Shown here: positions 18,436-26,390 of the stretch, piece after piece | Numbering within the stretch: position 1 is the stretch's first letter | Layout of the letters: the number at the start of each line of letters is the position of its first letter | The notes under the pieces: model-generated | Database searches by the model: none | What the model saw: only the letters and a program-made list of their open reading frames with translations | Told to the model about the DNA's origin: nothing | Origin: a virus | Length of the DNA stretch: 26,390 nt | Virus record (IMG/VR): IMGVR_UViG_3300024358_000053 | Span: 1 to 26,390 of that record | Strand: one strand, 5' to 3' | Position numbers and translations under genes: made by a program

Positions 18436-18852
18436 ATGAAATCAGCACTACTCATTGACGACGACCAAGGAGTAATTGCGAGCGTATCCACGTCGCTGAT
18501 TGGCTTTGCGAAAAAGCAGACGCACACTGTGACGAAGGCGATTGAGGCTCTGCAAGCGCACGACTTCGACGTTGTGTTTCTCGACTTGAAACTGCCGGAC
18601 TCATCGCCCGAACGAACGCTGGAAATGCTGCCTATGCTTCGCCGTCTCGCCGGGGATGCTGCATTCATCCTCATGACCGGCTACCCGTCCGAGATCGGCA
18701 ACGCGAAGTTCGCCGTGGACTGCATTCTTCAAAAGCCATTTCACTCCGGACACGTGCGCGAGGCGCTCGAAGCCGCCATGCTTACGCAGGCACGTGATTG
18801 TGTGACGGCACGCTGCGAAAGGATGGCAAAAACCCTGCTAGCTTTCACATGA
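18436..18852 (+). CDS. Stand-alone response-regulator receiver (REC) domain protein
   Basis: The 138-residue protein is a complete receiver domain: acidic pocket Asp8-Asp10, phosphoacceptor Asp50 in FLDLKLPD, switch Thr81 in ILMTGYP, and Lys100-Pro101 in LQKPF. All key residues of the CheY-like fold are present, so it should accept phosphate from a histidine kinase or acetyl phosphate. There is no C-terminal output domain beyond about 20 residues. It lies five bases after the membrane protein and overlaps the lipoprotein by ATGA, inside the lysis cassette. Its action could be through protein contact with a lysis protein or a host kinase; this is inference. Confidence 0.93.
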   Translation: MKSALLIDDDQGVIASVSTSLIGFAKKQTHTVTKAIEALQAHDFDVVFLDLKLPDSSPERTLEMLPMLRRLAGDAAFILMTGYPSEIGNAKFAVDCILQKPFHSGHVREALEAAMLTQARDCVTARCERMAKTLLAFT

Positions 18853-18977
18853 AACTCCTCACCGCACTCATCGCACTTTCATCGCTCACCGGGTGCGTCA
18901 CAAAAATCACCGCAGACTCGGTGACAATCACGACCAGCGCACGCACGTCTTTACACGTCCGCGCAACACCGCTATGA
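18849..18977 (+). CDS. 42-residue lipoprotein, possible outer-membrane spanin
   Basis: The frame begins MKLLTALIALSSLTGC, a classic lipoprotein signal with the lipobox LTGC and lipidated Cys16. The mature part is only 26 residues, rich in Thr and Ser. It overlaps the receiver gene and the endolysin gene by ATGA on both sides, so it is translated as part of the lysis cassette. Small lipoproteins in this place are usually outer-membrane spanins (Rz1-like) that fuse the outer membrane in Gram-negative hosts. It is short for Rz1 (60) and lacks the usual proline run, so the role is tentative. Confidence 0.75.
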   Translation: MKLLTALIALSSLTGCVTKITADSVTITTSARTSLHVRATPL

Positions 18978-19537
18978 CGCCCGCACAAATAAAGGCCATG
19001 CAAACCCGCATCGGCGCAGAGCCGGACGGTTTTTGGGGACCGAAATCCATCCGCGCAGTGCAAGCGCATCTTCGTTCACTCATGCCGCAGAGCAACCCGT
19101 GGCCGGACACGTCACAGGAGGCGCTCACGAAGTTCTACGGAAAGGCCGGGGACGAGTCACGGCTTGTGAAAATGCCAGTTCCCGCTGGCGTTATCGTTCA
19201 ATATGACGGGCGCAACGTGGATTCAATCCGCTGCAACGAACGAGTTACCGAAAGCCTCTCGCGCATCCTTGTCGCCGTCTCGAAAGTCGCACCGCTAGTT
19301 CTGCGCGAGTATGCGGGGGTGTATAACAACCGCCCGATGCGAGGCGGTTCGCTTCCGTCTCTCCATGCTCGCGGCGCGGCGATAGACCTTGCGCCGGAGA
19401 CAAACGGGAACCATGCCGCGTGGCCGGTTGCCGCCGATATGCCGCTCGCCGTGATGGAGTGTTTCGCACGCGAGGGATGGGTTTCTGCGGGCGCGTTCTG
19501 GGGGCGCGACGCGATGCATTTTCAGGCGACGCGATGA
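18974..19537 (+). CDS. Endolysin: peptidoglycan-binding plus M15-type peptidase
   Basis: The 187-residue protein starts at an ATGA overlap. Residues 4-34 (AQIKAMQTRIGAEPDGFWGPKS) match a PG_binding_1 repeat. The C-terminal part has the zinc-peptidase pattern of M15 (VanY/L-alanyl-D-glutamate-type) enzymes: SLHARGAAIDL with His131 and Asp138, and RDAMHFQ with His182. Glu167 in AREGW is a candidate general base. It cuts peptide crosslinks in the cell wall at lysis. No signal peptide is visible, so access to the periplasm depends on the holin. A terminator overlaps its stop codon. Confidence 0.92.
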   Translation: MTPAQIKAMQTRIGAEPDGFWGPKSIRAVQAHLRSLMPQSNPWPDTSQEALTKFYGKAGDESRLVKMPVPAGVIVQYDGRNVDSIRCNERVTESLSRILVAVSKVAPLVLREYAGVYNNRPMRGGSLPSLHARGAAIDLAPETNGNHAAWPVAADMPLAVMECFAREGWVSAGAFWGRDAMHFQATR

Positions 19538-19568
19538 CGTAAAAACGGCACTCTTACGTCCGTTTTTT
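19536..19568 (+). terminator. Intrinsic terminator after the endolysin, with alternative pairings
   Basis: GACGTAA (19536-19542) pairs with TTACGTC (19554-19560), followed by CG and TTTTTT. In a second, mutually exclusive pairing, AAAAACGG (19541-19548) pairs with CCGTTTTT (19560-19567). Either would end the late transcript. The first stem begins inside the stop codon of the endolysin gene. Confidence 0.75.
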
Positions 19569-19745
19569 CTCACCCTCGCATTTTTCTTTCGCCCGCAAAC
19601 CCTCATTAATGCTTGATTCCAGCGTGACGTGAAAAGATTTTTGAAAAAAGTTATAGACGCGATGCGGGATTTTTGATTTACTCCAAAACGTCAAAGGGAA
19701 ACCGGAGACGCAAACAGAACAGAAACCAAAAACAGAAACACGAAC
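19569..19745 (+). other. AT-rich gap between late and DNA-metabolism genes
   Basis: About 177 bases without an ORF. The centre (19620-19680) is AT-rich (GATTTTTGAAAAAAGTTATA, then GGATTTTTGATTTACT) and is the best place for a promoter of the following module, but I cannot assign -35 and -10 elements with a correct spacing. The last 50 bases are an A/C-rich leader (ACAGAACAGAAACC repeats) leading to the ATG at 19746. Confidence 0.5.
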
Positions 19746-19928: not shown

Positions 19929-20138
19929 ATGAACCCGAACGACCCACACACTCCAGACGACCAGCGCATTCAAGAGCGCAACCGCAAAGCACTCGCCTAC
20001 CTCGACGCGCTCCGCGACGAAGAGGAACGCGAGGACCGGCTGAAATGCCGGGCACTCGGTTGTCTCGTTGTCCTCGTATTCAATGCAATCTTTTGGACAG
20101 CCGTCTGGCTGTTTCTTCGCAACCTCGGAGAACTCTAG
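19929..20138 (+). CDS. Small membrane protein, C-terminal anchor
   Basis: The 69-residue protein has a charged, helical N-terminal half (QERNRKALAYLDALRDEEER) and one hydrophobic helix at residues 43-63 (LGCLVVLVFNAIFWTAVWLF). This is a tail-anchored layout with the soluble part probably in the cytoplasm. It starts six bases after the previous stop; the spacer GAATTAACAATTC is a small inverted repeat. No family recognised. It lies at the start of the early module, and might affect host membranes or exclusion; this is speculation. Confidence 0.6.
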   Translation: MNPNDPHTPDDQRIQERNRKALAYLDALRDEEEREDRLKCRALGCLVVLVFNAIFWTAVWLFLRNLGEL

Positions 20139-23263: not shown

Positions 23264-23640
23264 AAATCACCCTTCAACTCCCGATTCCCGAAAAGGCACT
23301 TTGGCCGAATGACCGCATCAACGCATTCGTGAAACGCCAAGCCATCCGCCGGGCACGGCACGCGGCGGTTTACGAGGCGATGCGTTGCCTCACGGACCTC
23401 GGCTTGACGCGAGGGCCGAAGTGGGAGCAGGCGAAGTATTACGTCACGCTCTACAAGACGACGGCACGGTTTCCCGATGAGGACAATCTCATTGCCGCGC
23501 TGAAACCCTACATCGACGGAATTCAGGACGCGGGCATTGTCCGCAACGACAAAGGACTTCGCATCGCTGGCACGGGCTTCGTCGTTGTGCCGACGATGCC
23601 AAGGGTTGAAATTGACGTTTGGGAGGATAATCAACCATGA
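23260..23640 (+). CDS. RusA-like Holliday junction resolvase
   Basis: The 126-residue protein has the RusA pattern FPDEDNLIAALKPYIDGIQDAG: Asp73, Asp75, Asn76, Lys82 and, further on, Asp97 in VRNDKGL are the candidate metal and catalytic residues. Length fits RusA (120). It cuts branched DNA intermediates made by the recombination genes upstream. AAGGAG (23253-23258) lies only one base from the ATG, so translational coupling through the ATGA overlap is probably more important than a free ribosome binding site. Its stop overlaps a tiny ORF at 23637. Confidence 0.85.
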   Translation: MKITLQLPIPEKALWPNDRINAFVKRQAIRRARHAAVYEAMRCLTDLGLTRGPKWEQAKYYVTLYKTTARFPDEDNLIAALKPYIDGIQDAGIVRNDKGLRIAGTGFVVVPTMPRVEIDVWEDNQP

Positions 23641-23672
23641 AACACTTTGAGCGCGAAACTGCAACGGCCTAG
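23637..23672 (+). CDS. Possible 11-residue ORF after the resolvase
   Basis: MKHFERETATA starts at an ATGA overlap with the resolvase stop and has GGGAGG ten bases before its ATG. It may be a leader peptide for the structured stretch that follows, or a remnant of a lost gene. There is no family or coding evidence beyond the start context. Confidence 0.3.
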   Translation: MKHFERETATA

Positions 23673-23966
23673 CAGCCCTAATGTAAGGTGCGGTCAGATG
23701 ACGGCGTTAAAACGGTCCGCGTCTAACCCGGAGCAGGTGCCAACCTGCCGCGCTCAACAAATTTGCGGGATTCGGACCACCGAGCAGGCGTATCCTGTGT
23801 GTGAATTTGCTAATCACGTCCCGCAACCACTTTAACAACTTTGCCGGGGCAAAATGCCCGTGGCGTGAGACAAATAATAGCATTACCGGCTGAGATTTGA
23901 AAGAGACTCACGACCATTCGCGGACCTCAAGGCGAGCGACGGCGATACACTTTAACGAACAGAAAA
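23673..23966 (+). ncRNA. Structured non-coding stretch of unknown type
   Basis: This 294-base stretch has no convincing gene; ORFs through it look like shadows. It contains several perfect stems: GCAGGT/ACCTGC (four-base loop, about 23734-23749); TGCGGGA (23764-23770) with TCCCGCA (23819-23825); GCC plus GGGCA (23843-23851) with TGCCC plus GGC (23855-23864); CGTGAG (23864-23869) with CTCACG (23907-23912), enclosing CAAAT/ATTTG. The number of nested stems suggests a folded RNA, or an origin or regulatory site. CACTTTAAC occurs twice, at 23828-23836 and 23948-23956. I cannot assign a known RNA family. Confidence 0.45.
23764..23829 (+). ncRNA. tRNA-like cloverleaf ending in CCA
   Basis: TGCGGGA and TCCCGCA form a seven-base-pair acceptor-like stem, followed by A and CCA (23827-23829). 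Between them lie TT at the tRNA position 8-9, a CGG/CCG stem with a four-base loop, a five-base-pair stem GCAGG/CCTGT with a five-base loop, and a five-base-pair stem TGTGA/TCACG with a nine-base loop directly before the acceptor 3' strand. The D-loop GG, the anticodon loop of seven and the TTC motif of normal tRNAs are absent, and the length of 66 is short. It is not a normal tRNA gene; it may be a tRNA-like structure, a decayed tRNA, or chance. Confidence 0.3.
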
Positions 23967-24212
23967 ATGAACATGACCACAGACCACGAACCACTATTCT
24001 CCGACTTTCCGGAGACAAAACCGAACAGACTCCGTGCCGCACGGCTCGCCGTCGAAAAAGCAGAGGCGGAAGTCACTCGACTTCGCGACACGTCGCCGGA
24101 ATATGACAAGTGTCCGGCACCGCTGAAATGGGAGATCAACGAGGCTCGTATGAAGCTCGAAGAGGCGACGGCGGAACTCGAAGAAGCGGAACTGGAGGAG
24201 TTGAGGAAATGA
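23967..24212 (+). CDS. Small coiled-coil protein, unknown
   Basis: The 81-residue protein is not recognised. After a short polar N-terminus, residues 20-80 form a charged coiled coil (RLRAARLAVEKAEAEVTRLRD; EEATAELEEAELEELRK). Its ATG follows ACGAACAGAAAA, the same A/C-rich leader found before other genes of this module. A second Met at residue 3 is an alternative start. Its stop overlaps the helicase-methyltransferase gene by ATGA, so the two are probably coupled. It could be a partner of that enzyme; this is inference. Confidence 0.65.
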   Translation: MNMTTDHEPLFSDFPETKPNRLRAARLAVEKAEAEVTRLRDTSPEYDKCPAPLKWEINEARMKLEEATAELEEAELEELRK

Positions 24213-26390
24213 ATACCTACGACGAAGTAATCGCCGCGAAGCGTGCAACCATTAAGCATTCGGGATTTGAACCACTGCCATTTACCGCGCCCCTTTTCGA
24301 GTGGCAGAAGCTGATTGTATCATGGGCAATTAAACAGGGGCGGTGCGCCTTGTTCGCTGAATGTGGACTTGGCAAGACTCCAATGCAACTTGAGTGGGCG
24401 GATCAAGTTTGCCGTTACACTGGCGGCAGCGTTTTGATTCTCGCGCCGCTCGCAGTTTCTCCGCAGACCGTGAAAGAAGGCGAGAAGTTTGGAATCAAAG
24501 TGACTCACGTTCGCGAGCAATCGGAAGTTCAGTCCGGAATCAACATCACGAATTACGAACGACTGGACAAGTTCACTCCGGAGTTTTTCGCGGGCGTGGT
24601 TCTGGACGAAAGCTCGATCCTTAAATCATTCCAAGGGAAGACGCGAATCGGACTCACGAACTCATTTGCAAAGACTCCATTCCGACTTTGCTGCACGGCT
24701 ACGCCTGCACCGAACGATTACACGGAGATGGGACAACATGCAGACTTCCTCGGAGTGTGCTCGCCTGCTCAAATGCTCGCAACATACTTCATCAACGACA
24801 CATTCAACACGGGAGATTGGCGTTTGAAAAAGCATGCAAAAACTGCATTCTGGGAGTGGGTGGCAACTTGGGCGGCATGCGTATCCAAACCATCAGACAT
24901 CGGTTTCCCAGATGACGGTTATTTACTGCCATCGCTAAACTTCAAGACGGAGATGGTTCACGTCGAACAAACGGAAGGGCGCGCAGACGGAGAGCTGTTC
25001 AGAAACCCGACGCTTTCAGCTACAAATCTGCATCAGGAAATGCGACTGACAAACGAGTCACGATGCAAACGCGTTGCTGAGATCATCGCTGAAAAACCGG
25101 ATGAGCTATGGACTGTATGGTGCAATACAAACTACGAGGCCGAAGAGTTGAAACGAGTATTGCCGGATGCTGTGGAGATTCGCGGATGTGATAAACCGGA
25201 GACAAAGGAAAAACGGCTCAATCAATTCTCGAACGGAGAGTTTAAAACGCTCATCACGAAACCGGAGATCGCTGGACGAGGACTGAATTGGCAGCATTGC
25301 GCGAATACAATCTTCTGCGGGCTGTCTTACTCGTTCGAGGACTTGTATCAGGCTCTCCGCCGTCATTACCGATTCGGCCAGCATCGCGAAGTAAATGCTT
25401 ACATCGTGCAAGCTGACACGGAAGGCCCGATTCTCGATGCCGTTGTCGAAAAGATGGCGAAGCATGAGGAAATGAAAATCGAAATGCGGCAAGCCGCGCT
25501 GAGTCTCAAAAACAAAACACACACCATAAAAATGAAAACAGACATCAATGAAGCCAACGGAACCGATTGGATGCTTTGCCACGGAGATTGCGTGCGCGTA
25601 GCTCGCGAAAAACTCGCAGATGAATCAATCGACTTCTCAATCTTTTCTCCGCCGTTCGCTGATCTATTCACCTATTCCGACGACGTGGCAGACATGGGCA
25701 ACTGCTCCGGAATGGATGACTTCATGGTTCAATTCGGATTCCTCATCGACGAACTCATGCGCGTGACCGTGCCCGGCAGAGAGTGCGCTGTGCATTGCTG
25801 CGACTTGCTCGCAACGAAATGGAAAGATGGAGATATTGAGTTTAAAGACTTCTCTGGCGCAATCGTCACAGCGTTTCGAGATCGCGGATGGTTGCTTCAC
25901 TCCAAAGTCACGATATGGAAAGACCCTGTGACGGAAATGCAGCGCACAAAGGCTCATGGGCTGCTCTATAAAACGCTGCGGACGGATTCGGCGAACGTCC
26001 GCGTTGGAGCTCCTGATTATCTTCTCGTGTTCAGGAAGCCGGGGCGCAATCCAAAACCAATCACTCACTCGACCGATGACATTCCGCTCGAACGATGGCA
26101 GGAATTGGCGTCGCCAGTATGGATGAACATCGATCAAGGCAACGTCCTCAACGGGCGCGAAGCAAAAGAGGATCGTGATGAACGTCACATCTGCCCTTTG
26201 CAGCTTGACGTGATCAACAACGCTCTCGACCTATGGAGCGCCCCGGGAGACCTTGTTTTTTCGCCTTTCGCTGGCATCGGAAGTGAAGGGTATTGCGCTC
26301 TTCAAAAAGGCAGGCGATTCGTCGGCGCAGAACTCAAAGAGTCCTATTTCAAAACAGCCTGCGAGAATCTGAAGTGCGCGAAATCACAGT
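24209..26390 (+). CDS. SNF2-type helicase fused to an N4/N6 DNA methyltransferase (partial, runs off the right edge)
   Basis: At least 727 codons are open, without a stop, to the window end. Residues 1-430 are an SF2 helicase of the SNF2 type: P-loop ECGLGKT (51-57), Walker B VLDES (131-135), motif III TATP (163-166), and motifs V/VI in PEIAGRGLNWQ (352-362) and QALRRHYRFGQ (381-391). Residues 442-720 are a beta-class methyltransferase: SPPF (480-483) is the catalytic motif IV, and FSPFAGIGSEG (684-694) is the AdoMet-binding motif, so motif IV precedes motif I. It probably modifies phage DNA in an ATP-dependent way, which could protect it from restriction. It overlaps the small coiled-coil gene by ATGA. 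The C-terminus is not seen. Confidence 0.92.
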   Translation, partial: MNTYDEVIAAKRATIKHSGFEPLPFTAPLFEWQKLIVSWAIKQGRCALFAECGLGKTPMQLEWADQVCRYTGGSVLILAPLAVSPQTVKEGEKFGIKVTHVREQSEVQSGINITNYERLDKFTPEFFAGVVLDESSILKSFQGKTRIGLTNSFAKTPFRLCCTATPAPNDYTEMGQHADFLGVCSPAQMLATYFINDTFNTGDWRLKKHAKTAFWEWVATWAACVSKPSDIGFPDDGYLLPSLNFKTEMVHVEQTEGRADGELFRNPTLSATNLHQEMRLTNESRCKRVAEIIAEKPDELWTVWCNTNYEAEELKRVLPDAVEIRGCDKPETKEKRLNQFSNGEFKTLITKPEIAGRGLNWQHCANTIFCGLSYSFEDLYQALRRHYRFGQHREVNAYIVQADTEGPILDAVVEKMAKHEEMKIEMRQAALSLKNKTHTIKMKTDINEANGTDWMLCHGDCVRVAREKLADESIDFSIFSPPFADLFTYSDDVADMGNCSGMDDFMVQFGFLIDELMRVTVPGRECAVHCCDLLATKWKDGDIEFKDFSGAIVTAFRDRGWLLHSKVTIWKDPVTEMQRTKAHGLLYKTLRTDSANVRVGAPDYLLVFRKPGRNPKPITHSTDDIPLERWQELASPVWMNIDQGNVLNGREAKEDRDERHICPLQLDVINNALDLWSAPGDLVFSPFAGIGSEGYCALQKGRRFVGAELKESYFKTACENLKCAKSQ

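Follow-up and report, generated by a model that had tools for sequence, protein, structure and literature searches.

A stand-alone response regulator receiver encoded beside a membrane protein and upstream of the endolysin gene in a group of IMG/VR phages

Gene order at the receiver locus

The DNA analysed here, referred to as the window, comprises positions 1 to 26,390 of the 26,390-base IMG/VR record IMGVR_UViG_3300024358_000053. Its gene order runs from the terminase through portal, protease and tail genes to a group of lysis genes, which is followed by genes of recombination or replication. Within the lysis region, a gene for a complete receiver is located between the gene of a small transmembrane (TM) protein and a lipoprotein gene, and the run is concluded by an M15-type endolysin gene and a hairpin (Table 1). 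The genes are closely packed: TM protein and receiver genes are separated by a 4-nt gap in the window and share an ATGA overlap in relatives, and ATGA overlaps likewise form the receiver/lipoprotein and lipoprotein/endolysin junctions, which agrees with the ATGA coupling of receiver and lipoprotein genes noted originally.

Table 1 Features of the receiver locus in the window
Feature	Position	Strand	Basis
TM protein, 101 aa	18126..18431	+	one weak N-terminal TM segment, charged helical tail
Stand-alone CheY-like receiver, 138 aa, ATG start	18436..18852	+	PF00072, E 9.6e-9
Lipoprotein, 42 aa, lipobox LTGC	18849..18977	+	read from sequence
M15-type endolysin	18974..19537	+	PF13539, E 3.3e-7; phrog_17001 endolysin, E 8e-20
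Terminator-like hairpin followed by T run	19541..19568	+	RNA fold z -3.8 (19530-19580)

The upstream gene had been described as that of a membrane lysis protein. While the position of the receiver between this gene and the lipoprotein gene holds, the label is not backed by any profile, as neither holin nor spanin families in Pfam, PHROGs and NCBIfam match the TM protein, and its relatives likewise match no holin profile. Its presumed late action is probably lysis-related. The lipoprotein, of which a similar gene occurs in all five lineages described below, gives a weak match to an Rz-like spanin family (phrog_456, E 0.039), and its mature part comprises only about 28 aa.

The terminator-like hairpin 3' of the endolysin stop codon is taken as the end of the late gene run. 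Its sequence is not kept in relatives, and a consensus terminator scan did not list it, the loop probably being too long for that scan. Further 3' lies the gene of a 69-aa protein (19929-20138) whose TM segment is C-terminal. It is kept in 5/5 lineages and, being located beyond this hairpin, probably belongs to another operon.

Occurrence in related phages

Relatives of the locus were accessible through the endolysin, which retrieved 80 viral loci. In the four closest of these (87-88% endolysin identity), the receiver occupies the same slot without exception, and a search with an alignment of the receivers added three further contigs. The resulting set of eight contigs, all from uncultured phages, represents five distinct sequences, namely the window, L009, L087 (identical to L089 and L090), L006 and L007 (with L008). 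In all eight, i.e. the window and seven other IMG/VR contigs, the receiver is found in the same slot and downstream of the same TM family. Conservation of the position in related phages, a check raised with the original prediction, is thus borne out, and its counterpart, a receiver carried elsewhere in related phages as random cargo, was not encountered. A search with a conserved tail protein retrieved L125 and L129 as additional group members, both of which stop short of the slot, and no group contig spanning it is devoid of the receiver.

Detection of these receivers depends on the search method. The single receiver sequence gave zero matches in IMG/VR, where the alignment with relatives first obtained through the endolysin was required; the TM protein as query gave zero matches as well, and the L006 receiver revealed no contigs beyond those already found. 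Applied to 50 records, the PF00072 profile gave a signal in this clade only, in a quick scan that missed L006-L008. Among GenBank phages, tblastn with the window receiver returned four weak matches, all in unannotated records, while the L087 receiver and the terminase returned none. The phage receivers form a cluster of their own (90/86) in a small tree, separate from receivers sampled within the phylum of L102, a topology with long branches and with comparison receivers that had been picked using the phage profile.

In the L006/L007/L008 type only, an extra 64-aa protein with one TM segment is encoded between receiver and lipoprotein (L006:9685-9879, L007:9685-9879), ATGA-coupled on both sides and with no convincing family match. 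Among genomes of the phylum of L102, L134, L130, L139, L140 and L143 carry a conserved family of about 190 aa with a C-terminal receiver, the N-terminal part of which resembles an excisionase-like helix-turn-helix as read by eye from the sequence.

Receiver domain and active-site residues

The product of the gene is a complete single-domain receiver of class PF00072 (Response_reg), aligned over residues 5-111 and thus over nearly the whole model with 35.8 bits at a curated cut-off of 30.2 bits. The relatives L009 (40.7 bits), L087 (41.4 bits) and L006 (31.7 bits) also exceed this cut-off, and L007 falls just below it (28.0 bits); searched directly against PF00072, the L006 and L007 receivers reach E-values of 1.8e-7 and 2.5e-6, respectively. 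A phmmer search of the PDB returned exclusively receivers with CtrA as top match (7.4e-7). The C-terminal stretch of about 27 aa matches no domain, leaving a receiver without output domain. Hence, the original prediction of an intact receiver was correct, including the residues D8, D9, D10, D50, T81 and K100 (the latter followed by P101), all of which are present in the window protein. An AlphaFold model built from a five-row alignment is of low confidence (pLDDT 46.6).

Across all five lineages, the acidic pair, the phospho-acceptor Asp, the Thr/Ser and the Lys are kept, the acidic pair reading E-D instead of D-D in L006 and L007. Although receivers of the group can be as little as 31-36% identical, D9, D50, T81 and K100 are all the same, for which the chance is about 1% at that level of identity. 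The receiver is apparently active, and phosphorylation of D50 is predicted.

Selection and linkage of neighboring genes

Comparison of close pairs demonstrates that the receiver is under strong purifying selection, with dN/dS values of 0.07 for L009 and L087 (dS 0.48) and 0.02 for L006 and L007 (dS 0.41). The TM protein is as constrained as the receiver (dN/dS 0.01 at 99% identity between L009 and L087). Since the receiver occurs at the same place in seven other contigs and displays such low dN/dS ratios, its presence is above chance. Recent acquisition as cargo was rejected in view of this selection, of the constant pairing with the TM protein and of a GC content of 0.556 compared to 0.555 for the genome.

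Gene-by-gene comparison further revealed that exchange of genes occurs around a fixed TM-receiver pair. Between L009 and L087, identity is high for the TM protein (99%), the receiver (94%) and the lipoprotein (95%), while their endolysins are unrelated (M15 versus CHAP), a CHAP enzyme replacing the M15 endolysin in L087, L089 and L090. Conversely, L009 and L006 resemble each other in lipoprotein (83%) and endolysin (92%), whereas TM protein and receiver are only 27% and 31% identical. Between L006 and L007, TM protein (93%) and receiver (98%) are well kept, while tail proteins are merely 34% identical, and window and L009 share 66% identity in the TM protein and 67% in the receiver compared to 39% in the lipoprotein. 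Across all loci collected, TM and receiver families occur in identical sets of contigs. This joint inheritance hints at a functional tie but does not prove one, because the two genes adjoin and would travel together with no interaction required.

Possible roles of the receiver

Lysis timing in phages is governed by holin chemistry, and in T4 also by antiholins linked to superinfection. Given an intact receiver next to one membrane-protein family and ahead of the endolysin, the question of whether phosphorylation takes part in lysis becomes directly testable, and the receiver-TM pair at this position may let lysis respond to host phosphate signalling. We tentatively favor, at somewhat less than even odds, that the receiver partners the TM protein from the cytoplasm in a phospho-responsive manner and tunes the late action of the latter. 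According to this proposal, the receiver would be made late, as suggested by its distal place in the run from tail genes to endolysin, and would remain in the cytoplasm. Since the clade contigs encode no recognizable HATPase_c kinase, the phosphoryl donor, if any, would be host-derived or a small molecule, i.e. a host histidine kinase or a compound such as acetyl phosphate. In one of its phosphorylation states, the receiver would bind the TM protein, so that membrane permeabilization, and hence endolysin release, would become dependent on host signalling or energy state. The receiver would then act like the cytoplasmic antiholin RIII of T4, equipped with a phospho-switch.

Several observations support this proposal: the same slot in eight contigs with a kept active site and dN/dS ratios of 0.02-0.07, the persistence of the TM-receiver pair through endolysin exchange (L009 versus L087), the joint divergence of the pair beside similar lipoproteins and endolysins (L009 versus L006), the lack of a kinase in the contigs together with a gene run ending at the terminator-like hairpin, and the precedent of T4 RIII, which binds a holin from the cytoplasmic side (PMC8385771). 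What was observed is the conservation of the receiver, its intact active site, its pairing with the TM protein and its position, whereas we infer that it is phosphorylated, binds its partner and affects lysis. The proposal is weakened by the failure of the TM protein to match any holin profile, and would be weakened further if the helical tail of the TM protein were periplasmic, as the receiver could then not reach it. The most far-reaching version, a host-gated lysis module in which a membrane lysis protein is switched directly by a phage receiver that reports on the status of host kinases or acetyl phosphate, appears rather unlikely.

A strong rival to any role in lysis is that the receiver is a decoy, i.e. 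a sink for phosphoryl groups of host kinases that blunts a host response, for example of an envelope-stress kinase triggered late in infection, and leaves the lysis proteins untouched. An intact phospho-acceptor site without output domain fits this role, as does the absence of a phage kinase, and the constant neighbor is a membrane protein that may hold the receiver near sensor kinases. Host-takeover genes, however, are more often early, while the gene order places the receiver in the final part of the structural and lysis run, and no host kinase partner is known; such a decoy is considered rather unlikely. Position alone does not prove a role in lysis either, because phages with the same endolysin family carry unrelated genes in this stretch, namely those of a dihydrofolate reductase (DHFR), a DUF1353 protein, an α/β-hydrolase-like protein or an HNH endonuclease, which constitutes the strongest counter-evidence to the involvement in lysis. 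In L076, for instance, a DHFR gene is located between a tail gene and the endolysin gene (L076:9102-9584, PF00186 6.1e-37), so the stretch can take metabolic cargo. The receiver could accordingly be an accessory (moron) gene in an insertion-tolerant stretch, with a role in host physiology that involves neither lysis nor the TM protein. This is a somewhat less probable explanation, since the receiver is always present in the phage group and always accompanied by the same TM family, is under purifying selection and equals the genome in GC content. Least probable, and improbable by itself, is that TM protein and lipoprotein constitute a two-component spanin with the receiver merely lodged between them. 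With its short N-terminal TM segment and helical tail, the TM protein, together with the small lipoprotein encoded after it, resembles the Rz/Rz1 anatomy, to which the weak Rz-like match of the lipoprotein adds. Yet, the mature lipoprotein is very short, and TM divergence parallels that of the receiver and not of the lipoprotein (L009 versus L006), for which reason this pairing was disfavored. Even if a role in lysis should not hold, a selectively kept phage protein that is likely to meet host phospho-signalling would remain.

Comparison with known systems

In length, receiver domain, phospho-acceptor residues and lack of an output domain, the protein resembles single-domain response regulators such as CheY, DivK and Spo0F. 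It differs from these in its phage origin, in having a membrane protein and an endolysin as neighbors and in the lack of a kinase from the contigs, as well as in two details of sequence: position 97, three residues before the Lys, is Ile where the switch residue is usually aromatic, and a DSxPExT motif following the phospho-Asp loop is common to most phage receivers of the clade. The hypothetical likeness to T4 RIII lies in a small cytoplasmic protein binding a membrane lysis protein (PMC8385771), but the receiver is another kind of domain, and searches of Pfam, PHROGs and NCBIfam matched it to receiver families only and to no lysis or antiholin family.

Another phage-borne protein with an acidic pocket is the divergent receiver-like cREC domain (PF20274) of jumbo phages (PMC7824862). 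Membership in this family was rejected, as the window receiver gives nothing at E 0.1 and two relatives stay below the cut-off of 27 bits (L087, 15.3 bits; L009, 13.2 bits; E 0.03-0.15), while PF00072 matches the receivers far more strongly (1e-8 to 1e-10). In addition, no NAD or cyclic-nucleotide genes were recognized beside the window receiver, in contrast to the cREC setting. Among PHROGs, the protein matches phrog_731 (2.3e-8) and phrog_5982 (1.7e-5), phage families that share the receiver stretch but are longer (227 and 1030 positions), are listed with unknown function and are matched in their receiver part alone. Phage homologues of Spo0A in gut viromes are without receiver domain (PMC10294663). 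In the PMC papers searched, neither a phage receiver tied to lysis nor a phage with lysis tied to two-component phosphorylation was found, which by itself does not prove novelty.

Possible host and further features of the window

The host is perhaps a member of the Verrucomicrobiota. No more than hints come from endolysin relatives in MAGs of Prosthecobacter and Verrucomicrobiia, among others, and from an Akkermansia phage, and the terminase gave only weak matches among 388 genomes assigned to the same phylum as L102. No phage integrase (PF00589) was found in the clade contigs, which may be fragments.

Elsewhere in the window, three consecutive structured intergenic units resembling tRNA-like cloverleaves were noted (23640-23965; fold z -2.5 to -3.7), the second of which displays a 7-bp acceptor-like stem and a 3' ACCA. 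Neither ARAGORN nor Rfam made a call on these units, and related ones occur in L087 (6629-6736), L006 (12705-12853) and L009 (11129-11240), some of them at other genomic positions. Finally, a 727-aa frame (24209-26390) that runs off the window end combines an SNF2-like/Helicase_C helicase part (PF00271 2e-7) with an N6/N4 DNA methylase part (PF01555 3.8e-10), both parts being recognized in a single search.
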